This document shows, piece by piece, positions 3,404 to 32,927 of a stretch of DNA of 40,491 bases. Numbering within the stretch: position 1 is the first letter of the stretch; each line of letters opens with the position of its first letter. The DNA is from a virus: positions 1 through 40,491 of IMG/VR virus record IMGVR_UViG_3300036944_000157; one strand, written 5' to 3'. The translations under genes and the position numbers were made by a program. Below the pieces are notes generated by a model that saw only the letters and a program-made list of their open reading frames with translations, had not been told where the DNA came from and made no database searches.

Positions 3404-3440
3404 AGCCCTCCACCCTTCGGGGTGGGGGGCTTCTTTTTTT
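3404..3440 (+). terminator. Intrinsic terminator of the late operon
   Basis: A 12-base-pair stem (AGCCCTCCACCC at 3404-3415 against GGGTGGGGGGCT at 3420-3431, one G-U pair) closes a UUCG tetraloop and is followed by C and seven T. It lies 21 bases after the last lysis gene. The T run touches the stop codon of the convergent minus-strand gene. No T run exists on the opposite side, so it should act only on plus-strand transcripts. Confidence 0.93.
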
Positions 3441-3675
3441 ATGCCTCTTTGTCCACCGGACAGGGTACGGTTACTAGATTGCCGCAGTTGACGCAGGTTG
3501 CGTCTAGGAAATACCAGGATAGTTCGTAGTCCTCAAAGGACGCCATAACATTAAAGACCTGCGACCCACACGGACAGACGTGGACAGGGCCAAAGGCCCT
3601 CAGATCGCTTCCAAAGGCTTCTGGGAGGTACTCTGTGCGCCTGAATAAGCGCAGGGTTGGTAGACGGAGCCGCAT
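3439..3675 (-). CDS. Zinc-ribbon-like small protein
   Basis: A 78-residue protein with a basic N-terminus and likely zinc ligands C34, C36 (CPCG), C61, C64 (CVNCG) and possibly C72. It is the only minus-strand gene between the late and early operons, convergent with lysis and divergent from the early operon. ATG 3675 is preceded on its strand by GGTGAGG. Function is unknown; a small regulator or host-interaction protein is a guess. Confidence 0.65.
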   Translation of the reverse strand: MRLRLPTLRLFRRTEYLPEAFGSDLRAFGPVHVCPCGSQVFNVMASFEDYELSWYFLDATCVNCGNLVTVPCPVDKEA

Positions 3676-3739: not shown

Positions 3740-3770
3740 ATTGTACACATACTCAACCTAGTAATGTGAA
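3740..3770 (-). promoter_or_regulatory. Candidate promoter for the 78-residue minus-strand gene
   Basis: Read on the minus strand, TTCACA (3770-3765) and TACAAT (3745-3740) match sigma-70 type -35 and -10 elements at five of six positions each. The 19-base spacer is slightly long. Its -35 box lies within the CCTAGTAATGTGAAAT motif shared with the terminase upstream region. Confidence 0.4.
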
Positions 3771-3800
3771 ATCAGACACGCCGTGTTATACTTGTAAGTA
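3764..3800 (+). promoter_or_regulatory. Early promoter, probably giving a leaderless mRNA
   Basis: TATACT at 3787-3792 ends seven bases before ATG 3800, so transcription should begin at or within a base or two of the start codon. No ribosome site precedes the ATG (TTGTAAGT). Leaderless mRNAs are common in actinobacteria. The -35 region is weak (TGTGAA or GTGAAA). Confidence 0.6.
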
Positions 3801-4351
3801 TGACAACCTTAGTAGGGATCAACGGCCCTGATTTCGTTGTGCTAGCTGCTGACTCGCAGATTACTGATAACGATCAACGCGTCATTAGTACGCAGACGCC
3901 CAAGATTATCCAGATCGGAAAGTATCTACTCGGTGTAACTGGTGACTCACGCCCCGGTGATATCTTGATGTATAACTGGAAGCCACCGATGTACAAGTAC
4001 CAAGATCCGGTGCAGTGGATGGGTAGAAAGATCATCCCTAGTATCCAGCAAGCGTTCAAAGATAATGGATACGAGGTAGATAAGGAAGCTAACTTCTGCT
4101 ACCTAATAGCCTTCGATGGGATGTTGTTCTCTATCGGCCCGGACTTGTCATTTAACGCAAGTGAGCACGGTCTATTCACCGCAGGAAGTGGCGGTCCTTA
4201 TGCACTCGGTTACCTTTATTCTTTGAAGCCACACTCATACAAGACGATGCTTATGGCAAGAGTCGTGGCAGAAAGAGCAGTAAAGATCGCGTCGGTTCTT
4301 GACATCAATACGTGTCCTCCGATACAAATAGTTACTCAAGAGAGAGGGTAG
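3800..4351 (+). CDS. Proteasome-beta / HslV-like Ntn hydrolase
   Basis: 183 residues with the T1-family (20S proteasome beta and HslV) layout. The protein begins M-TTLVGINGPDFVVLAADSQ, placing Thr2 as the N-terminal nucleophile once Met is removed, as in HslV, with no propeptide. D18 (AADSQ), K35 (TPKIIQIGKY), the GVTGD strand, the GSGGPYALGYL loop (S130) and D168 (DINTCPPIQI) fall at or within one residue of the conserved mature positions 17, 33, 129 and 166. It is the first gene of the early operon. Substrate, partner ATPase and oligomer are unknown. It may act with or against the host proteasome; another Ntn amidohydrolase activity remains possible. Confidence 0.82.
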   Translation: MTTLVGINGPDFVVLAADSQITDNDQRVISTQTPKIIQIGKYLLGVTGDSRPGDILMYNWKPPMYKYQDPVQWMGRKIIPSIQQAFKDNGYEVDKEANFCYLIAFDGMLFSIGPDLSFNASEHGLFTAGSGGPYALGYLYSLKPHSYKTMLMARVVAERAVKIASVLDINTCPPIQIVTQERG

Positions 4352-4353
4352 AA

Positions 4354-4443
4354 ATGTTAGGTTTCTTATTCGGTTTGCTATTAGGTTTCGTCGGGGCGTA
4401 TGCTTTTGATTATTACCTGACGTGGAGGGATAACCGCAGATGA
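4354..4443 (+). CDS. 29-residue single-span membrane peptide
   Basis: A small ORF with a hydrophobic core (LGFLFGLLLGFVGAYAF) and a charged end (TWRDNRR). AGAGAGG precedes ATG 4354 by about five bases, and the stop overlaps the next ATG as ATGA. Tight packing between two operon genes supports it as real. It may anchor a partner at the membrane. Confidence 0.6.
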   Translation: MLGFLFGLLLGFVGAYAFDYYLTWRDNRR

Positions 4444-4685
4444 AGTACGATGATCTATTATTAGCAATAGACAATGACTTTCGTTTTCATTCAGATTTTG
4501 GTGGTTCCTATAAAAATCGTAATGCTCTACTTTCAGTAGTGGATATGCACAAGCCATTCAATATAGGCACTGATAAAGAACAATGCTCTAGATGTATGGA
4601 TATAAACACATCGAATGGGGTGGTCTACGAAATGTCTCCTTACCCTTGCGAAACTATAAAGGCTATTGAGAAGGAGTTAGCGTGA
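4440..4685 (+). CDS. 81-residue protein with a CxxC motif
   Basis: Cysteines C49, C52 (CSRC) and C69 (YPCETIKAIEKEL) suggest metal binding. Small actinophage early genes often carry a CxxC pair followed by a P-C-x-T helix like this. It overlaps the peptide gene upstream (ATGA) and the nuclease gene downstream (GTGA). Function is unknown. Confidence 0.7.
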   Translation: MKYDDLLLAIDNDFRFHSDFGGSYKNRNALLSVVDMHKPFNIGTDKEQCSRCMDINTSNGVVYEMSPYPCETIKAIEKELA

Positions 4686-5638
4686 TTACAGATCCAAAGG
4701 AATTATTACTACACGTACTGCACGCTAAAGATGCAGGTCGTGACCGTAGCAAGCAGACACAGGTTGGCCCATCAGAGATCGGTGGCTGCCGTCGTAAGGT
4801 TTGGTACCGCCTTAATGCTCAGCCAGAGACTAACGATAACCAGTCAAAGCTGGCAGCAATTATGGGTACTGCTATCCACGCTGCTATCGAAGATGCAATC
4901 ACCACACTAGATCCAGAAGGTAAGACTTACTTGGTCGAGACTGAAGTTGCATACGGTGATATGAAAGCACACGTTGACTTATTCGTACCAGGTATCGGTG
5001 CGGTCATTGACTGGAAGACAAGCAAGGTAAAGAACCTCAGTTACTTCCCGTCAGCGCAACAGCGCTGGCAGGTACAGGTCTATGGCTACTTGCTATCTAA
5101 GAACGGTTATGAAGTTAAGACCGTGAACCTAGTAGCGATTGCACGTGACGGTGATGAGAAGGATGTAAAGGTTCATAGCGAACCATACGATGAAGTCTCA
5201 GCACTAGAAGCGCTACAGTGGCTAGCAAATGTAAAGGCTATGACCGAGGCGCCAGCACCAGAAAAGGATGAATCGTTCTGCAAGAACTACTGCCAGTACT
5301 ACGACGCATCCGGTGAGATGGGTTGCGTTGGCTTAAAAAAAGAACGTATCGTCCTTGAGGAAGTGGTGATTGAGGATGCAGAAGTTGACAACCACGCACT
5401 AAAGTATTTACAGTTAGATGAAAGAATCAAAGAGCTGGAGAAAGAAAAGGATTCCTTGAAGGCTTCCTTCGAGGGAACTACTGGCACTACTGCTAGTGGT
5501 ATTCAGATCAGTTGGACAACGGTTAAAGGTCGTGAGACAGTTGACTCTGAACAAGTAGAAAAACTATTGGGCTTTATACCGAAGGTTGTTGGTAAAGAGT
5601 CTATTAGATTAAACATCAAACCAAGTGGAGGAAAGTAA
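4682..5638 (+). CDS. Cas4/RecB-type PD-(D/E)XK exonuclease with iron-sulfur cysteines
   Basis: 318 residues. Nuclease motifs appear in order: PSEIGGCRRKVWYRL (C36), GTAIHAAIE (H66, E70), HVDLFVPGIGAVIDWKTSK (D99, D110, K112) and RWQVQVYGYLL (Q130/Q132). C200, C204 and C215 join C36 to form a probable 4Fe-4S site, the arrangement of Cas4 and AddB-like nucleases. A probable coiled coil (about 235-270) and a small beta domain follow. A role in processing DNA ends during phage recombination or replication is likely. The start is GTG 4682, overlapping the upstream stop by four bases. Confidence 0.87.
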   Translation: MITDPKELLLHVLHAKDAGRDRSKQTQVGPSEIGGCRRKVWYRLNAQPETNDNQSKLAAIMGTAIHAAIEDAITTLDPEGKTYLVETEVAYGDMKAHVDLFVPGIGAVIDWKTSKVKNLSYFPSAQQRWQVQVYGYLLSKNGYEVKTVNLVAIARDGDEKDVKVHSEPYDEVSALEALQWLANVKAMTEAPAPEKDESFCKNYCQYYDASGEMGCVGLKKERIVLEEVVIEDAEVDNHALKYLQLDERIKELEKEKDSLKASFEGTTGTTASGIQISWTTVKGRETVDSEQVEKLLGFIPKVVGKESIRLNIKPSGGK

Positions 5639-6035: not shown

Positions 6036-6302
6036 GTGCGCGAGCCAAGGTTCTATGAGAACCCTGCTTGCGCTCAAGTAGGTGGCGACTTCTGGTTCCC
6101 TGAGAAAGCAGACGGCTCCAGTAATTCTGTAGAAATGCTAATGGCAAAGTCTATTTGCAGAAGTTGTCCACACCAAAGCGAATGTGCAGAGTGGGGAATA
6201 CAGAAAGAACGCTTCGGTATATGGGGCGGTCTGTCTGAGAATGAGCGACGAAATCTTCGTCGTGAAAACAATATATCTTTGAAGGAGGAAGACGTTGCTT
6301 GA
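6036..6302 (+). CDS. whiB: WhiB-family transcription factor
   Basis: 88 residues with the full WhiB signature: four iron-sulfur cysteines (C12, C41, C44, C50 in CRSCPHQSEC), the GIWGG turn at 61-65, and a basic C-terminal stretch (RRNLRREN) for DNA contact. WhiB proteins are confined to actinobacteria and their phages, so this is the best host marker in the window. WhiB proteins typically bind the primary sigma factor, and a mycobacteriophage WhiB is known to alter host division. The start is GTG 6036, three bases after the upstream stop. Confidence 0.95.
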   Translation: MREPRFYENPACAQVGGDFWFPEKADGSSNSVEMLMAKSICRSCPHQSECAEWGIQKERFGIWGGLSENERRNLRRENNISLKEEDVA

Positions 6303-7149
6303 CCTATCACGTGCTTGGGGCGGGGTGCTTACCAAAGCAACTCCGCTGCCGGACGTGTGGCAAGCGTTATCTTCAAAGCAGATCAAGTTCCGAAGAGGAC
6401 AGGTCTGTATGGTAGCGGCTGCGCCTAATGCTGGTAAGAGTATGTTTGCTCTTATCTATGCAATGAAGGCAAAGGTTCCAACGCTTTTCTTCTCGGCAGA
6501 TACAGACACCACAACTGTAATGATGCGAGCCGCAGCGCAAGCATCGGGTCATTCACAGGTATCAGTAGAACTGAACCTATCTATGGATAGTCATTACTAC
6601 GATAAACACTTTGGCAAACTCAACCATATTAAATGGGTCTTTGATTCATCACCATCGTTAGATGATATTGAGTTAGAGATCAAGGCATATGTGGAGCTTT
6701 ACGGCGAGGCTCCAGAGTTAATTGTCATTGACAACTTAATGAACGTGGCAGCAGAAACAGATAACGAGTGGGCTGGTCTTCGTGCGATAATGATGGAACT
6801 CCACGATATGGCACGCAAGACTGAAGCCTGCGTACTGGTACTGCACCACGTATCTGAGCAAAGCGAGTATGGTTCACCATCAAAACCACCTGCTCGACGT
6901 GCTATTCACGGCAAGGTAAGCCAGTTGCCGGCGTTAATCTTAACGCTTGGCTACGACCCGAACCAAGCTGTACTATGCGTAGCAGCGGTGAAGAACCGCT
7001 TCGGACCACACACTGCTGACGCTTCTGATTATGCAACACTCTTCGTCAACTACGCTGCTTGTCAAATATCGGATAAGGATGCGTGGGGTGTTATGATTAA
7101 GAATGACGCTATGAATAACTACCAAGGGAACTACATAGTAAATGGCTAA
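6295..7149 (+). CDS. RecA/DnaB-fold ATPase (helicase candidate)
   Basis: 284 residues. Walker A is APNAGKS (43-49), Walker B is ELIVIDNL (141-148), and VLVLHHVSE (180-188) fits the sensor/motif 3 strand of DnaB and RadA-like ATPases. It lacks a separate primase-binding domain, so it is a single-domain motor, perhaps the replicative helicase or a RepA-like ATPase. It sits just before the primase genes. The TTG start at 6295 is supported by AAGGAGG (6282-6288) six bases upstream, and it overlaps whiB by eight bases. Confidence 0.83.
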   Translation: MLDLSRAWGGVLTKATPLPDVWQALSSKQIKFRRGQVCMVAAAPNAGKSMFALIYAMKAKVPTLFFSADTDTTTVMMRAAAQASGHSQVSVELNLSMDSHYYDKHFGKLNHIKWVFDSSPSLDDIELEIKAYVELYGEAPELIVIDNLMNVAAETDNEWAGLRAIMMELHDMARKTEACVLVLHHVSEQSEYGSPSKPPARRAIHGKVSQLPALILTLGYDPNQAVLCVAAVKNRFGPHTADASDYATLFVNYAACQISDKDAWGVMIKNDAMNNYQGNYIVNG

Positions 7150-7303: not shown

Positions 7304-7640
7304 CGGGCGCAAAGGCGCCCAGTTTGAGACTGATGTAATGAAGTTTCTCCGTTCGGCAGGAGCGCTAGCTGAAAGACTCACCAAGGCTGGCGCAAATGAC
7401 GAGGGAGATCTGGTATGTATCGTAAGTGGGAAGACATACATACTAGAACTCAAGAACAGGAAGGCGTTAAACCTTCCGGAGTTCTGGAGTGAAGCACAGG
7501 TTGAGGCGCTTAACTATGCAAAGGCACGGGGGCTTGGGGAAGTACCTTTGTCATACGTCATAGTTAAGCGTCGCAACGCTGGAATAGATAAGGCTTGGGT
7601 AATCCAAGATCTAACACAATGGTTAAAGGAGAGGCAATGA
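7254..7640 (+). CDS. Hjc-like PD-(D/E)XK nuclease (Holliday junction resolvase candidate)
   Basis: 128 residues with the core of archaeal-type resolvases: GAQFETDVMKFLRSAG (E25), then GDLVCIVSGKTYILELKNRK with D52 and E65-x-K67. The length and the small central domain fit Hjc-like or phage-type resolvases that trim branched DNA before packaging. ATG 7254 has a weak AAGGT site eight bases upstream. ATG 7290, giving a start MANPNGRKG, is a good alternative and would avoid overlap with the preceding gene's last codons. Confidence 0.75.
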   Translation: MKMAMQSMTRVKMANPNGRKGAQFETDVMKFLRSAGALAERLTKAGANDEGDLVCIVSGKTYILELKNRKALNLPEFWSEAQVEALNYAKARGLGEVPLSYVIVKRRNAGIDKAWVIQDLTQWLKERQ

Positions 7641-7876
7641 GAAAATTAGATCAAGCATTTGAGGCAATCTGGAATAAAATTCATTGGCTGGATGCACAAA
7701 ACGCAAACCTAAGAGATATGCATTACGTTCCAGAAGCGATTACCAGTTTAACCAATAAGCAGAACTTGCTCATTGCTGCTTTAGTTGAAGCAGGTATATT
7801 GGTAGAGAAGAAGGAAGACTCTAAAGAGTATCTTCGATTTGGAAAACAAAAATACACAATTAGAAAGGTTAAGTAA
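7637..7876 (+). CDS. 79-residue hypothetical protein
   Basis: A helical N-terminal half (FEAIWNKIHWLDAQNANLRD), then NKQNLLIAALVEAGILVEKK, which may be a small winged-helix-like region, and a basic end (KYTIRKVK). ATG 7637 follows AAAGGAGA and overlaps the upstream stop as ATGA; that fixes the start over longer in-frame options. Function unknown. Confidence 0.7.
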   Translation: MRKLDQAFEAIWNKIHWLDAQNANLRDMHYVPEAITSLTNKQNLLIAALVEAGILVEKKEDSKEYLRFGKQKYTIRKVK

Positions 7877-8002
7877 ATGCCAGTACCAGGCGGAGAAATT
7901 ACAAGTACAGAAACTTGGGATGCAACACCAGTAGAAGAAGTAGTCGAAGCAGTAGAGGCAGTAGAAGAAGTACTACCAGATGAGGAACAGGATCCAGCGT
8001 GA
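7877..8002 (+). CDS. 41-residue highly acidic peptide
   Basis: After MPVPGGEITSTETWD the chain is almost all Glu, Val, Ala and Asp. It starts directly after the upstream stop (TAAATG), and its last codons overlap a GTG start. Acidic miniproteins of phages sometimes mimic DNA or inhibit host factors; that role here is only a possibility. Confidence 0.55.
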   Translation: MPVPGGEITSTETWDATPVEEVVEAVEAVEEVLPDEEQDPA

Positions 8003-8178
8003 TCTGCGTATATTGCATTAAGGCCGGGGAAGAGAACACGGTCAATCACTTTAAGCGAGCAGCGCATTGGCACGATAAGTGCGACGACAAGGGGTGTGTA
8101 TGCCAGCACAAGACTGGAGCAGGACTCGTAAAGCGGGAAAATTCAAAGGTTCCGTTGATGCAAACTCAATCCCCATAG
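7999..8178 (+). CDS. 59-residue zinc-binding protein, overlaps primase
   Basis: Ligand-like residues C3, C6, H25, C28, C33, C35 and H37, ending CVCQHKTG then a polar tail. The CxCQHKTG ending with a PLMQTQSP-type tail is recurrent in small actinophage proteins. It starts at GTG 7999 (GTGA overlap with the acidic peptide) and stops at 8176-8178, so its last 79 bases are shared with the primase gene in another frame. The recognisable motif makes it more likely real than a shadow. Confidence 0.6.
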   Translation: MICVYCIKAGEENTVNHFKRAAHWHDKCDDKGCVCQHKTGAGLVKRENSKVPLMQTQSP

Positions 8179-18702: not shown

Positions 18703-20457
18703 TTGTTAACAGTTAAAGAGATTGACGCGAAGCTAGCGCGTTTGCGTACCAAGTACGCTCCACGCGATCAGCGTATGCGCGACGTTCTCTCTGTACGTCA
18801 GGGAGACTTGTCCAAAGTATTCCCTTCGATGTTCTCCGAGGATTACCCAAAGCCGCTAGTTGCTAACTTCATTGACGTTGCAGCACGCGACTTGGCTGAA
18901 GCCGGCGCACCAATGCCATCCTTTAACTGCTCAGCAACTAATATGGTTTCCGATGCTCAGCGCAAAGCTGCTGATACTAGAACTCGTATCGCTAACTATT
19001 ACGTTTCATTCTCAGACCTAGCGCTGCAGAACTACAACAACGCTGACTGGTATAACACCTACGGTATGTCTATCGGTATGGTAGAGATGGATTACGAAGG
19101 AAACAATCCTCGTATCCGTATGGTTGATCCTACTGGGGCTTACCCAGAGATTGACCGCTTCGGTCGCACTATTTCACTTACCCAACTTATTATGTCTGAC
19201 GCTGACACGCTATCAGCACAGTTCCCAGAGTTTGCAGAACAGATCCTAAAGAAGAACAACTTCCAACCTGGTTCTCCTTATATGACGATGATCCGTTACC
19301 ACGATGCAGAGCAAGATCTAATCTATCTTCCTGATCGTAATAACTTGGTTCTATCTCGTGTACCAAACCCAATAGGCAAGTGCCTAGCCCGTGTTCGTAT
19401 TCGTCCATCTTTGGACAACCAAGCACGCGGTCAGTTTGATGATGTCTTGGCTGTACAACTCGCTCGTGCTCGTTTTGCTATCTTGCAGATCCAAGCCGCT
19501 GAGAAGTCAATCCAAGCGCCTATTGCTATTCCACAAGATGTACAAGAACTTGCCCTTGGTCCTGATGCGATTATGCGTTCTGCTAATCCACAAGGTATCC
19601 GTCGTGTAGGTCTTGAACTTCCTGCTGGTGTCTTTACTGAATCAGGTGTACTAGAGCGCGAACTACGTCTCGGTGCTCGTTATCCTGAATCACGCTCTGG
19701 TCAGATTGACGCATCTGTTGTTACTGGTCGCGGTGTGCAAGCACTACAGGCTGGATTTGATACACAGATCAAAGCAGCACAGGCACAGTTTGCTCGACTC
19801 TTTGAAGAACTAATCGGTCTTTGCTTTGAAGTAGATGAAAAACTCTTCGGTGGCATTATGAAGACTATTAAGGGAACAGACGATGGAACCCCATATACAC
19901 TTAAATACATTCCATCCCGCGACATCAAAGGCGAGTACGGCGTGGATGTTCGCTATGGCATTATGTCTGGTATGGATCCTAACCGTGCTGTCATCGCTTT
20001 ACTTCAGATGCGTTCGGATAAGCTCGTTTCCAGGGATTACGTACGTCGAGAGTTACCGGTAGAGATCAATGTTACGCAAGAAGAACAGCGCGTGGATATT
20101 GAAGAGATGCGCGACTCCCTCCGCGTCGCAGTTGCGCAGTACGCGCAAGCGATCCCGCAGATGGCGGCACAGGGTCAAGACCCGACACAAGTTGTTACTC
20201 GCATTGCTGAAGTTATTTCAGGCCGTCAAAAAGGACTTTCACTAGAGTCCATTGTAGAAAAAGTATTTACTCCACCAGCACAACCAGCGCAACCTGAGAT
20301 GCAAGCACCAGGTATGCCTCCTATGTCTCCAGCAGCAGGTGCGGCCCCCGCCCCTGCCTCGCAGCAACCTCCACAAGAACAAGGTGGTACGGCCCCTGCT
20401 GCTGGTCAAAAACCTGATATAGCCACACTACTAGCCGGTATCACCGGTGCAGCATAA
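18703..20457 (+). CDS. Portal protein
   Basis: 584 residues directly after the terminase, where a portal is expected. GMSIGMVEMDYEGNNPRIRM and DPTGAYPEIDRFGR (about 120-160) are characteristic of actinophage portals. The core is alpha-rich, and the last 60 residues are Pro/Ala/Gln-rich, likely disordered inside the head. The TTG start at 18703 has AAGGA a few bases upstream. It forms the dodecameric vertex for packaging. Confidence 0.87.
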   Translation: MLTVKEIDAKLARLRTKYAPRDQRMRDVLSVRQGDLSKVFPSMFSEDYPKPLVANFIDVAARDLAEAGAPMPSFNCSATNMVSDAQRKAADTRTRIANYYVSFSDLALQNYNNADWYNTYGMSIGMVEMDYEGNNPRIRMVDPTGAYPEIDRFGRTISLTQLIMSDADTLSAQFPEFAEQILKKNNFQPGSPYMTMIRYHDAEQDLIYLPDRNNLVLSRVPNPIGKCLARVRIRPSLDNQARGQFDDVLAVQLARARFAILQIQAAEKSIQAPIAIPQDVQELALGPDAIMRSANPQGIRRVGLELPAGVFTESGVLERELRLGARYPESRSGQIDASVVTGRGVQALQAGFDTQIKAAQAQFARLFEELIGLCFEVDEKLFGGIMKTIKGTDDGTPYTLKYIPSRDIKGEYGVDVRYGIMSGMDPNRAVIALLQMRSDKLVSRDYVRRELPVEINVTQEEQRVDIEEMRDSLRVAVAQYAQAIPQMAAQGQDPTQVVTRIAEVISGRQKGLSLESIVEKVFTPPAQPAQPEMQAPGMPPMSPAAGAAPAPASQQPPQEQGGTAPAAGQKPDIATLLAGITGAA

Positions 20458-20845: not shown

Positions 20846-21248
20846 AGGTCCACTCGCCGGCGCTTCAGGTCCTGGTAAATTTTCAGCACGTACAGATTCA
20901 GGCGTTGGAACACCAGAGATGAAACTCGGTTCAATCGCTTACGGTGAAGGTAAAGAAACACAGGCTATTAAGTCTGGCGCTCCACTTGCCTCAACTCCAG
21001 ATGTTCGACCAACACCAGCAACCGCTGCAACACCAGCGGCTCCAGTAACTTCTTTGTTCGCTGATTCACAACGCCCAGAAGAACCTATTACTGCAGGTAT
21101 TGATTTTGGTGCAGGACCAGGAGCCAATGCACTTATGCTTGGTAAGAGCACAGAAAAACTTTCAGATACTTTAGCAAAACTTCTTCCCTTCGACACAACA
21201 GGTGAAATAACAATCCTTTATCAGCAAGCCGCATCCAGAGGACTTTAA
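20838..21248 (+). CDS. 136-residue Ala/Pro/Gly-rich virion-associated protein
   Basis: Low-complexity N-terminal two thirds (PTPATAATPAAPVTS), then a more ordered C-terminus (STEKLSDTLAKLLPFDTTGE). CAGGAGGAAACAG precedes ATG 20838. Its place between the portal and the giant virion protein suggests a head or ejection component. Confidence 0.65.
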   Translation: MARGPLAGASGPGKFSARTDSGVGTPEMKLGSIAYGEGKETQAIKSGAPLASTPDVRPTPATAATPAAPVTSLFADSQRPEEPITAGIDFGAGPGANALMLGKSTEKLSDTLAKLLPFDTTGEITILYQQAASRGL

Positions 21249-24200
21249 TGCCTAGCACAAACTTAAAACTTGCTGGCACTCAAGCTCAGTTAAATCCTAA
21301 TGAGAAGAAGCAAGTTGATGCTCTTTCAAACTTACTTGATACACACAAGTCTTTATTAGACCTGCCTACTACTCAAGCAAAGCAAAAGTACAGCCAGCTT
21401 CCTGCAGATCAGCAGTCAGCACTTGTTGCCTTTAACGGTGAAGAGGCTGGAAAGAAGCGTGGCTTCTGGGGTAGTGCTTGGCACTACACAGGTGGAACAG
21501 CGCTTGCTGGCTTGCAAGAAGCGTCAGACTTTATGACGCGTCTTTATCGTTTCAGCAAAGTCGGAGAACAACTTGAAGCAGCACAACCTGGAAACCAATT
21601 AAAAGGTTTATCTGGACTTAAAACTGCTTGGGATGCCGCTGGCGACAAAGGTGATCTAGTCTATGATCCAACCCGCATTGAAAAGGCTAAGGTTAAGTAC
21701 ACACCAGATCGCGTAAGCGTTGCTATCAAGGCAGCATCTGGAATCCCTTTAGATGAGATTATCGCTACTGGTACCGAAGCAGAAAAGCAAATTGCTTCTA
21801 AGGCAAGCCAAAAGCAGGATCCTTTATTTCAAGATACCTACGATGCAGTAGTTGCTGCTAAGTATTCACCGGGTCGAGAAGTTGCTAACGCAATCCTTCC
21901 TGAGTCTTTAGAAGGAACTGGCTTCCTATACAAAGGTATTTCTGGCGTTGGTGATGCAGCGTTTCGCTGGTACACCGATCCTTTACTTGTTCTTGGTAAA
22001 GCAAAGCAGGCATACGATGCCGCTAACTACGCCCTACTTAAAATCGTAGGAGATCCTAAGAAGTTAGATCAAGCATTTACTAATCCAAAGGTAGTCGGCT
22101 TCTTTGACCAATACGGCAAAGAACTTGATAATCTAAAGTCTGCTCGTTCTTCTAAGAATATCGTTGCAGCAACAGAGGCTTCTACTCGACTAAAGCGTAT
22201 TGCTCCTGAGTTCGGACCTGCAGCAATAGACGAGTTTATTAAAGCAGGCGTTAAGGATGCACCTACAGCTAAGAACTATCTTGCAAACATCGTAGATGTT
22301 AAGACTATTCTTACCGGACAACCTGCACGTAAGACACCTTTAATACCTAGATTAGATGCTGCACGCAAGGCTCGTATCGCTATTTATACTGGAGCCGATA
22401 AAGTCTTTAACATTGACAAGTCTGGTCGCAAGATCATCACTGCTTTGTATGGAACAGAACCACAATATGCAGATATTGCTACGGGCTTGAATGAGGCTAG
22501 TACATTAAGAGATACAGCATTTCAAGCAGGACTAAAGCCTGAAGATATAACAAATAAAATTGCTCAAGCAGAAAAGAGTCTTGGTCGTTTCAAGGGGCCT
22601 ACTGGATCTATCCGTATGCCACTTGATGTAATTCAAGGTCGCATTGATCGCTTCGCTGCAAAGTTTACTGCTATTCCTTACTTCAAAGATGGCTTCTTTG
22701 ATGTTATGTCTCCAAGTGCTACAACTCAGGTATATCGCGTAGCACGCCTTGCTAACTCACGTTATCACAGCAAGATGATCGCTGAAGCATTTGATGCTGG
22801 TAGCGAAGGTCAGCGTAAGCAGATCTTTACCGGTCTTTGGAATACAGTTGCAGAAATTCGTGGCGTATCTAAGTCTAAAGCAGGCGCTTCCTATATGGAT
22901 CAGTTTGCTGGACGTGGACTTGAAAAGAAGTATGCAGCAGATATCGTCGTAGATGGCGTAAACAAGGGAAACCCTGCACAGTTCGGTGAACAGCAACTTG
23001 CTTTGTTCCCATATCAGCTTTCATCTGGTATCGCAGTTCCATCTGTTACAGATCTAGATCGTTTATCTGTACGTTCAGGCATTATCGGAAAGATAATGGG
23101 TCTATCACACCAACGTTGGGTAGATAAAGTTCTATCTGGTTGGGTTATTGGAACTCTTGCCGGTCCTCGTTTTGCTATTCGTAACGCAACTGAAGACCTA
23201 ATGATGCACCTAGCAGTAGGTGATTCAGCCTTTGGTATCGTAAAGGGCCGTGCTCTTTCAACACGTATTCGTCTTTCTAAAGGTTTAACCGCAGAAGATA
23301 AACTATCTACTGTTGGCAAGAAGGCTCTTACGCTTGATCTTGAAGCAGGCGAAGTCGGCGTACTTAATAAGTTGGTTCGTCGTAAAGATCTTAAAAAGTA
23401 TGCAGGTCAAGTTGCTAAAGCACAGACCCCACAAGAAGTACGTCAAGTTATGGCTGATGCCATTCTTCACGATGGCCTTGGTCACGTAGTTGATAAGAAG
23501 GGTTCAGAGTATCTAGCAGAGATTGCTAAATACGGTAACCTTGATGACACGCTTCGCGCTATTGCAGAAGGCGGTAAGAACGGTCTTCGTGGTGCAGATC
23601 AGTATCTAGTTGCCACTAATGACGTTGCTCAGTTTGGTAAGATGGCAGGCATTGAAATTGACGGTGTTGCCTACAAGCAGGCTATGGGCGATAAAGCGTT
23701 TACACAGTTCAACCCAGTAGCAAATCAGCAAAGCCGCATCTCTTGGCTTGTGCAACTAGGTGTTACATCTACTGATGATCTAGCAAAGATCGCTGTAGCA
23801 AACCTAGATAATGAACCTAAAGCGTTAGAGGCAATGCGTGAATATCTCCGTAACTTGCCTGCAAAAGAACGTGCTCGCTTCCAGCTCTATGATGAGTCAG
23901 TAGGCGGCAATATAAATGTCCACGCTAAGAAGGCATATGACGCAGTTCGTAACCTTTACTCAAAGCGTAATGGCGATATCAATATGGATCTTCTTAATAA
24001 GGTTCGCATCACTGATAAAAGTGGCAAAGTAGCAGTCTCTGCTAAGAACCTAAGCCTTGAAGATTTGCCTAACAAGATGAGCGTAGAGTTAACTCCAGAG
24101 TTTATCTCAGGCCCAACACTCGTACCGGTATCAGATACTGGTAACTTTGCAGTGAGCCTAACTGATAAGGCTTGGGATGCAATGGGTGAGGCTAATGCTC

Positions 24201-25993
24201 GCTTCTCCCGTGAGCCTATTGTTATTAACGAGATGATCCGTATCCGCAAGGAGATGGCAGAGTCTGGCTTTGAAGAACGTCTTGTCGAAGCATTTACACA
24301 GGGTCTAGATGGTGACGAACTTCAGTTCGCTTTAACAAATGCAAAGAAAGAAATCGTTGCTATTACTGAAGAGTTAGCAAAGAACAGAGTCCTAGCGTTT
24401 GTTGATAACCCTGCAGTACGTAGCCAGTTGGCTATGGCTAGCCGTAACTTTGCACGCTTCTATCGTGCTACTGAAGACTTCTATCGCCGTGTTTACCGCA
24501 CAGTTCGATACAACCCAGAGTCTTTGCGTCGCCTATCTCTTACATACGAAGGCGTAACGCACTCAGGCTTTGTACAAGAAGATGATAATGGCGAGCCATA
24601 CTTCTTCTATCCAGGGTTAACTCCTGTATATAAAGTAATGAGCGATGTGGCACAAGTGTTCGGTTCTCCAGAGGCTTTCAAAGCCCCAATGCCAGTTGAG
24701 TTCGGTGGCAAATTAAAGATGCTTACCCCATCTATGAACCCAGATTCTTTGTTCCCAACATTCGCTGGTCCTATTGCAGCGATCCCATTGAAGTTTATAT
24801 TTAATGCAGTTCCTGCTCTTGATAGTTTTGAGAAGGTTCTTCTTGGAGCATATGCCGAAGATCAACCAATGGTCAACGCTATATTCCCTGCGCACGTATC
24901 TAGATTCATAGCAACCCTTGATCGTAACGAACGTCGCTCCCAGTATGCTTCAGCTTTCCGTAAAGCAGCAACATATCTTGAGGCTACTGGACACGGTCTA
25001 AAGCCAACGTTTGATCCACAGACTGGTGAATGGATTCCTCCTTCACCCGGTGAACTAACAAAGCACAAGGAAAAACTTGGCGCTACTACAGTAACCGTTC
25101 TTGCTATGCGCTTTATCTTTGGATTCTTTGCACCTGCATCACCGCAAGTAACACTCAAGTCAGAGATGGCTGAATGGGCTAGAGCAAATAAACGCGTTAA
25201 CTTTAAGCAGGTATTCAATAACCTTATTACTCAAAATAAGGGAAGCCTAGATGCAGCAATGGAAGACTGGGTTCGTTTGTTCCCAGATCAAATGCCATAC
25301 ACAGTATCTGAATCAGACGATAACGTAGTACCAGTAGTTCGTGCGGTTAATAAAACCGTAGGTTGGATTGATAAGAACGAGAAGTTGCTTAATGCTTATC
25401 CAGCAGCAGCACCGTTCTTAATGCCAAAAGAAGGCGACTTTGACTTCGACGCTTACCGCCTACTATTTAAGTCTGGTATTAAGTTTAGCAAGACGCTAGA
25501 TGACCACTTGCAAGATATTCAATCTGCTCGTGATATTCAGTTCTACTATCAGCAAAAGGACTCATACGAGGCAGAACTTGCTAGTACCTTTAACGATGCT
25601 CAGAAGACTCAGTTAAAGACTATGTGGGATTCTTGGGCAACACAGTTCAAGGGTGCTCGACCAATGCTTCAGGCTGAACTAGGACAGGGTGCTACACGTC
25701 AGAGAGCACGTCAAACTGCTTACCAAGATTTGCAGAATATGATCGAAGGCCCGGACTCATCTCTGGCTCGTAAGTCAGATCCTGCAGCATTTGATGCGTT
25801 GAAAGAAATGTCTCAGATCTACGACAATTACATTTACAGTCGTGATCTAGTTGTCGGATCAAGTGCAACAGCACTTTCCTACAAGGATCTGCTAAAGCAG
25901 AACGTAAAGTTTGCAATGCAGGAAATCGCATCTAGGAACCCAAATGCAGAAGACGCATACAACGTTCTATTTTCAAGACTAATTGGAGACTAA
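21248..25993 (+). CDS. 1581-residue giant virion protein (ejection/internal protein candidate)
   Basis: The longest gene, about 12% of the genome. It is mostly alpha-helical with scattered hydrophobic stretches, e.g. VLSGWVIGTLAGPRFAIRNA near residue 630 and TVTVLAMRFIFGFFAPA near 1280. It lies between the portal and scaffold genes, starts at a one-base TAATG overlap, and is followed by two further helical proteins. Size and place resemble the large internal or ejection proteins of podoviruses (T7 gp16 role). I see no lysozyme or ADP-ribosyltransferase motif. Function is inferred from context only. Confidence 0.75.
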   Translation: MPSTNLKLAGTQAQLNPNEKKQVDALSNLLDTHKSLLDLPTTQAKQKYSQLPADQQSALVAFNGEEAGKKRGFWGSAWHYTGGTALAGLQEASDFMTRLYRFSKVGEQLEAAQPGNQLKGLSGLKTAWDAAGDKGDLVYDPTRIEKAKVKYTPDRVSVAIKAASGIPLDEIIATGTEAEKQIASKASQKQDPLFQDTYDAVVAAKYSPGREVANAILPESLEGTGFLYKGISGVGDAAFRWYTDPLLVLGKAKQAYDAANYALLKIVGDPKKLDQAFTNPKVVGFFDQYGKELDNLKSARSSKNIVAATEASTRLKRIAPEFGPAAIDEFIKAGVKDAPTAKNYLANIVDVKTILTGQPARKTPLIPRLDAARKARIAIYTGADKVFNIDKSGRKIITALYGTEPQYADIATGLNEASTLRDTAFQAGLKPEDITNKIAQAEKSLGRFKGPTGSIRMPLDVIQGRIDRFAAKFTAIPYFKDGFFDVMSPSATTQVYRVARLANSRYHSKMIAEAFDAGSEGQRKQIFTGLWNTVAEIRGVSKSKAGASYMDQFAGRGLEKKYAADIVVDGVNKGNPAQFGEQQLALFPYQLSSGIAVPSVTDLDRLSVRSGIIGKIMGLSHQRWVDKVLSGWVIGTLAGPRFAIRNATEDLMMHLAVGDSAFGIVKGRALSTRIRLSKGLTAEDKLSTVGKKALTLDLEAGEVGVLNKLVRRKDLKKYAGQVAKAQTPQEVRQVMADAILHDGLGHVVDKKGSEYLAEIAKYGNLDDTLRAIAEGGKNGLRGADQYLVATNDVAQFGKMAGIEIDGVAYKQAMGDKAFTQFNPVANQQSRISWLVQLGVTSTDDLAKIAVANLDNEPKALEAMREYLRNLPAKERARFQLYDESVGGNINVHAKKAYDAVRNLYSKRNGDINMDLLNKVRITDKSGKVAVSAKNLSLEDLPNKMSVELTPEFISGPTLVPVSDTGNFAVSLTDKAWDAMGEANARFSREPIVINEMIRIRKEMAESGFEERLVEAFTQGLDGDELQFALTNAKKEIVAITEELAKNRVLAFVDNPAVRSQLAMASRNFARFYRATEDFYRRVYRTVRYNPESLRRLSLTYEGVTHSGFVQEDDNGEPYFFYPGLTPVYKVMSDVAQVFGSPEAFKAPMPVEFGGKLKMLTPSMNPDSLFPTFAGPIAAIPLKFIFNAVPALDSFEKVLLGAYAEDQPMVNAIFPAHVSRFIATLDRNERRSQYASAFRKAATYLEATGHGLKPTFDPQTGEWIPPSPGELTKHKEKLGATTVTVLAMRFIFGFFAPASPQVTLKSEMAEWARANKRVNFKQVFNNLITQNKGSLDAAMEDWVRLFPDQMPYTVSESDDNVVPVVRAVNKTVGWIDKNEKLLNAYPAAAPFLMPKEGDFDFDAYRLLFKSGIKFSKTLDDHLQDIQSARDIQFYYQQKDSYEAELASTFNDAQKTQLKTMWDSWATQFKGARPMLQAELGQGATRQRARQTAYQDLQNMIEGPDSSLARKSDPAAFDALKEMSQIYDNYIYSRDLVVGSSATALSYKDLLKQNVKFAMQEIASRNPNAEDAYNVLFSRLIGD

Positions 25994-31531: not shown

Positions 31532-32927
<1,396 letters not shown>

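Follow-up and report, generated by a model that had tools for sequence, protein, structure and literature searches.

The DNA analysed here, referred to below as the window, covers positions 1 to 40,491 of IMG/VR virus record IMGVR_UViG_3300036944_000157. It belongs to a freshwater actinobacteriophage, and the actinobacterial host proposed from the letters alone is borne out by a WhiB gene and by the isolation of close relatives in the same family on Ca. Planktophila. A profile scan of the window found a single PF00227 gene, encoding a proteasome-like peptidase (PSP), and gene order and promoter evidence agree that it is the first gene of the early operon, as had been suggested. The features of interest are:

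3439..3675, minus strand: divergent small CxC/CxxC (zinc-ribbon-like) protein, 78 aa, with a promoter region common to it and PSP
3775..3799, plus strand: PSP promoter element, comprising GACACGC at 3775-3781, the extended -10 TGTTATACT and a predicted leaderless mRNA start
3800..4351, plus strand: PSP, proteasome-like Ntn threonine peptidase, 183 aa, with its ORF start ATG at 3800
PSP residues: T2 (=Thr1), D18 (=Asp17), K35 (=Lys33), G48 (=Gly47, oxyanion), S130 (=Ser129), D168 (=Asp166)
4354..4443, plus strand: single-span membrane microprotein MLGFLFGLLLGFVGAYAFDYYLTWRDNRR, 29 aa, directly 3' of PSP
4682..5638, plus strand: Cas4/RecB-like PD-(D/E)XK exonuclease, early operon
6036..6302, plus strand: WhiB-like regulator (PF02467, E 5e-16), an actinobacteriophage marker
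6295..7149, plus strand: DnaB-like helicase, early operon
18703..20457, plus strand: portal protein, to which PSP is not adjacent in the window, unlike in the sister lineage

The sequence-only reading had placed the PSP gene at 3764-4351. These coordinates were rejected, as the frame opening at 3764 encodes a Met followed by an in-frame stop (3767-3769); the corrected ORF spans 3800-4351. The residues named in that reading are nonetheless all present, namely M1-T2-T3, D18, K35, GSGG with S130, and D168 in DINTCPP. The proposed lack of a propeptide also holds, given the stop at 3767 and an ATG immediately before Thr2, and sets PSP apart from 20S beta subunits, whose propeptide is cleaved.

Assignment of PSP to the T1 family of Ntn peptidases is far beyond chance. 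The Pfam Proteasome family (PF00227) matches with an E-value of 8.6e-9 and 35.7 bits, against a curated cut-off of 22.4; PHROG 1040, 'peptidase HslV family', matches at E 1.6e-24, and a PSP profile searched against the PDB retrieves HslV (E 2e-9) and BPH (E 5e-9). At least 319 relatives were recovered in one scan of IMG/VR, while tblastn on phage records returned 32, none at >60% identity, and a profile search of genome contigs with the PSP alignment found four proteobacterial MAG loci only. The comparisons that follow use a close-homologue set of 81 window-type loci and a wider alignment of about 190 phage and bacterial proteins.

That the protein adopts the alpha-beta-beta-alpha Ntn fold is well supported by modelling. 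An AlphaFold2 prediction built from 34 window and IMG/VR homologues reached a pLDDT of 89.7 and a pTM of 0.86, and DSSP assigns to it S1-S11 and H1-H4 in proteasome order, without S12/H5 and without insertions, which is the compact architecture of group I enzymes (PMC8665760). The absence of an Ntn sandwich from the predicted model had been set beforehand as the outcome that would count against a proteasome-beta/HslV-like fold; the sandwich is there, and the model, Foldseek and VIA-align concur. The top Foldseek match is BPH (5ovt; E 1.1e-12, TM 0.77), followed by HslV (E 7e-11) and 20S subunits; the match to BPH, HslV and 20S beta extends along the full length of the model. VIA-align Z-scores are tied or nearly so among BPH (Z 20.3, rmsd 2.6, 172 aligned), archaeal beta (Z 20.6, rmsd 2.6, 168 aligned) and HslV (Z 19.6, rmsd 2.9, 165 aligned), and residue 2 of the model superposes on residue 1 of BPH and HslV. 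The suggested kinship with HslV thus stands as regards the fold, although Foldseek puts BPH nearest among solved folds. A search of predicted viral structures returned 44 proteins at E<=0.001, and the fold therefore appears widespread in phages.

The active site is well supported as intact by sequence comparison, in agreement with the catalytic set read from the window, in which Thr2, D18 and K35 align with Thr1, Asp17 and Lys33. None of T2, D18, K35, G48, S130 and D168 varies among the 81 close homologues. Across the wider alignment, the nucleophile Thr1 is kept (with Ser in three proteobacterial homologues), Asp17 is kept throughout, and Lys33 is kept save in the two rows of the HslV outgroup, which have Arg in that column, probably through an alignment shift. 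The median dN/dS of PSP is 0.09 (47 pairs); together with the conserved catalytic residues, this purifying selection fits a working enzyme.

Phage-borne proteasome homologues are already known, and the novelty implied by the sequence-only reading did not survive comparison with the literature. There is a published description (PMC8665760) and a PHROG family for them, and annotated examples exist in Arthrobacter, Microbacterium and other phages. Two types, PPH and AAH, were described by Fuchs et al. 2021 (PMC8665760) without a function, and the literature searched offered none for a phage HslV-like protein. Like both types, PSP is phage-borne and of compact group I architecture, with an N-terminal Thr and no dedicated ATPase. 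Identity with PPH was rejected: PPH is about 140 residues long and has no H2 (PMC8665760), whereas PSP has 183 residues and carries H2 at 70-88. AAH, compared by description only, was absent from actinobacteria-specific phages in the survey of Fuchs et al. 2021 (PMC8665760), whereas the PSP lineage is one of actinophages and spans hundreds of contigs. What PSP adds is an actinophage lineage in an informative setting.

Among cellular enzymes, BPH (5ovs, 5ovt, 5ovu) shares the Thr nucleophile in addition to being the best structural match, but is bacterial and only 20-24% identical to PSP. It apparently operates without an unfoldase (PMC8665760) and is described as a tetradecameric double ring (PMC5777263), while PSP is known here from a monomer model. 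HslV (ClpQ), a dodecameric double ring, resembles PSP in fold, size, the Thr1/Asp17/Lys33 set and the GSGG motif, yet is about 20% identical and falls far outside the phage clades in our tree. Neither a co-encoded HslU nor a 20S alpha-subunit partner was found in the window. Other comparable proteins are the PSPs of DSL-LC01 ('ATP-dependent protease subunit HslV'), Arthrobacter Hum25 and Microbacterium Pumpernickel ('protease'), which are likewise actinophage proteins opening with start codon-Thr-Thr and bearing an intact triad; they differ in being 25-33% identical to the window protein and in lying in other operons. Other arrangements occur in other phages. Aeromonas phage 2L372X carries two tandem HslV-family genes, 210 and 211 (L263 3959-4921), possibly encoding a two-subunit ring, and Pseudoalteromonas phage J2-1 (L086 2905-4071) joins a PSP domain to about 200 C-terminal residues, like the RPC type (PMC8665760). 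The jumbo phage pSal-SNUABM-04 has HslV genes without HslU (PMC7823757).

The early position of PSP is accompanied by a recurring promoter arrangement. Upstream of the gene the layout is GACACGC-CG-TGTTATACT, with TATACT at 3787-3792, 7 nt 5' of the ATG, and no Shine-Dalgarno. Of the 81 homologous loci, 76 have a -10 box 4-10 nt ahead of the PSP start codon, 76 have GACACGC upstream, and only seven have a Shine-Dalgarno in front of the gene. At four genes further down the operon, no -10 box occupies the leaderless position (0/74, 0/70, 0/29 and 0/43). On this sequence evidence the PSP mRNA is probably leaderless. A window-wide GACACGC regulon was considered and rejected, the motif occurring in chance numbers elsewhere in the window. 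An inverted repeat, GTGTC..GACAC with a variable loop, was also observed in 60 of the 81 upstream regions (its form at 3740-3792 of the window is degenerate) and is possibly an operator or hairpin common to the divergent genes.

In the five loci that depart from the -10 spacing, an extra ORF separates promoter and PSP; in four of the five it reads as an HNH-type endonuclease by sequence pattern rather than by database search. Such inserts were noted at 7546-8004 in both L002 and L024, 6594-7040 in L053 and 7588-8013 in L079, and also in L018, an incomplete exception locus with the same upstream DNA as L024. They sit exactly between the leaderless promoter and PSP, so that it is the HNH start that falls in the leaderless position. 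Behind them PSP begins at TTG (overlapping TTGA) or, unusually, at ATC with a GGAG Shine-Dalgarno; its frame still opens start codon-Thr-Thr.

The gene order runs from the divergent Cys-rich gene through PSP, the Cas4-like exonuclease, a PF25690 protein, WhiB, the DnaB-like helicase and a primase to a sigma factor, and is fixed in the loci long enough to show it. The 78-aa CxC/CxxC product (3439..3675) has no Pfam or PHROG match. The microprotein accompanies PSP in 81/81 loci, at 28-31 aa and starting between -4 and +5 nt relative to the PSP stop. It has a core of FGLLxGFVxAYAFD and a single helix; its third codon position is about three times more variable, and its dN/dS is about 0.16. It was also found in L260, but the more distant L257, L258 and L261 have other small ORFs in its place, and PSP therefore does not always need it. 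Profile scans for AAA (PF00004) and AAA_2 (PF07724) were both empty in the window, confirming the reported lack of an HslU-like ATPase, from which it follows that PSP would act alone or with a host unfoldase. Nothing on proteasomes in acI hosts was found in the literature searched.

A sister lineage places the gene elsewhere. Planktophila phages LanE43AprE7 and F5 (OX376640/1), isolated on Ca. P. landstejnensis (PMC10202952), have genomes largely collinear with the window, yet carry PSP directly 3' of the portal gene, overlapping the next gene in F5, and have none in the early operon. PSP directly follows the portal gene in 80/80 IMG/VR loci of this sister type. Eighteen records at least 33 kb long were searched, and every one holds exactly one copy. 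The E7/F5 and window proteins belong to the same phage family, each as a single copy with an intact triad and the same predicted fold. They differ in sequence (30-31% identity), in the late (head) operon location of the sister gene and in its shorter H3/H4. At the Asp166 position, 38 of the 81 sister-type proteins have Asp and 43 have Asn.

A maximum-likelihood tree separates four groups: window-type, F5-type and DSL-type proteins and a proteobacterial/Firmicute/Streptomyces-plasmid clade. Grouping window-type and F5-type as one clade is neither supported nor rejected (AU p 0.22). As the tree does not settle how the first three groups branch, gene relocation and separate acquisition are both possible, and a common function across these clades is not implied. 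In the same tree, proteasome-like genes of Streptomyces plasmids (L268 3001-3543, L270 3001) cluster with the PSP of the Moorella phage.

Our favoured reading, to which we give slightly less than even confidence, is that PSP is a group I (HslV/BPH-type) Thr peptidase, active and probably ring-forming, which is produced at the outset of infection and cuts host or phage proteins. Host RNA synthesis probably begins at or beside the PSP ATG, which would make PSP one of the earliest proteins of the infection. Met1 would be taken off by methionine aminopeptidase, freeing Thr2 as the nucleophile, with D18 and K35 completing the catalytic triad and G48 supplying the putative oxyanion hole. By analogy with BPH and HslV architecture, the subunits probably form a ring or double ring, which, lacking a phage unfoldase, may cut unfolded or specific proteins and so aid the phage in taking over its host. 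The membrane microprotein coupled to PSP may act as its tether or regulator. A counterpoint to early takeover is the sister lineage, whose single copy lies in the late head operon and fits a purely early role poorly if both copies do the same job.

The location of the sister gene makes virion-protein processing the strongest rival, and because of it the earlier suggestion that PSP processes phage proteins keeps its place. As a maturation protease, PSP would cut the portal, a scaffold or the large internal protein, its early position in the window serving only as advance supply. We regard this as unlikely, if a serious contender. In its favour, the gene adjoins the portal throughout the sister loci in a genome otherwise largely collinear, every genome has one copy in one of two places, and no other peptidase family was detected among the head genes scanned. 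Judged by residence in the head module, as for a prohead protease, the sister gene qualifies, but the window gene opens the replication operon, some 15 kb away from the head genes. In the annotated loci read from other phages, PSP is found near nucleotide-metabolism or hypothetical genes rather than head genes, and a separate scaffold-like gene lies with the capsid, which does not need a protease. A 1581-aa protein of the window (21248-25993) matches neither Pfam nor PHROG and is probably internal to the virion; its counterparts in F5 and E7 have 1711-1764 aa. Among the tail genes is a collagen-like GATGPTG repeat protein (31863-32927).

Proteolysis itself is not certain, as some T1-fold enzymes are ligases; connectase acts as a specific ligase (PMC8665760). 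With that precedent and no unfoldase partner, PSP might be a protein ligase/transpeptidase or other amidase modifying one target. We consider this improbable: H1 and H2 are present, and the two-helix S3/S4 insertion of connectase is missing, S3 (20-23) and S4 (26-29) forming a tight hairpin.

More doubtful still is a poison or decoy that would co-assemble with HslV or 20S beta of the host and block or redirect the proteolysis they carry out. Early timing, a subunit of the same fold and length, and the lack of a phage ATPase in the window would all suit such a role, but a poison has no need of strictly kept catalytic residues, and mixed rings are unlikely at an identity of about 20% to HslV or beta. 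That PSP is vestigial or structural and lacks catalysis is barely credible in view of the low dN/dS and of catalytic residues fully conserved over deep divergence.

A more elaborate version of the favoured reading, which we hold to be rather improbable as a whole, would make PSP and its one-helix microprotein a membrane-linked compartmental protease for takeover, while the sister peptidase processes virion proteins. If true, the latter would be the first proteasome-fold enzyme to do so. Proteasome homologues are in any case present in actinobacterial phages, where the 2021 survey lacked AAH. In the present family they occur once per genome, with an intact active site, and in a place fixed by lineage, either early or in the head operon; in the main lineage the microprotein is always beside the early copy. 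With E7 and F5 isolated and a Ca. Planktophila host in culture, this setting offers a handle on phage proteasome function.
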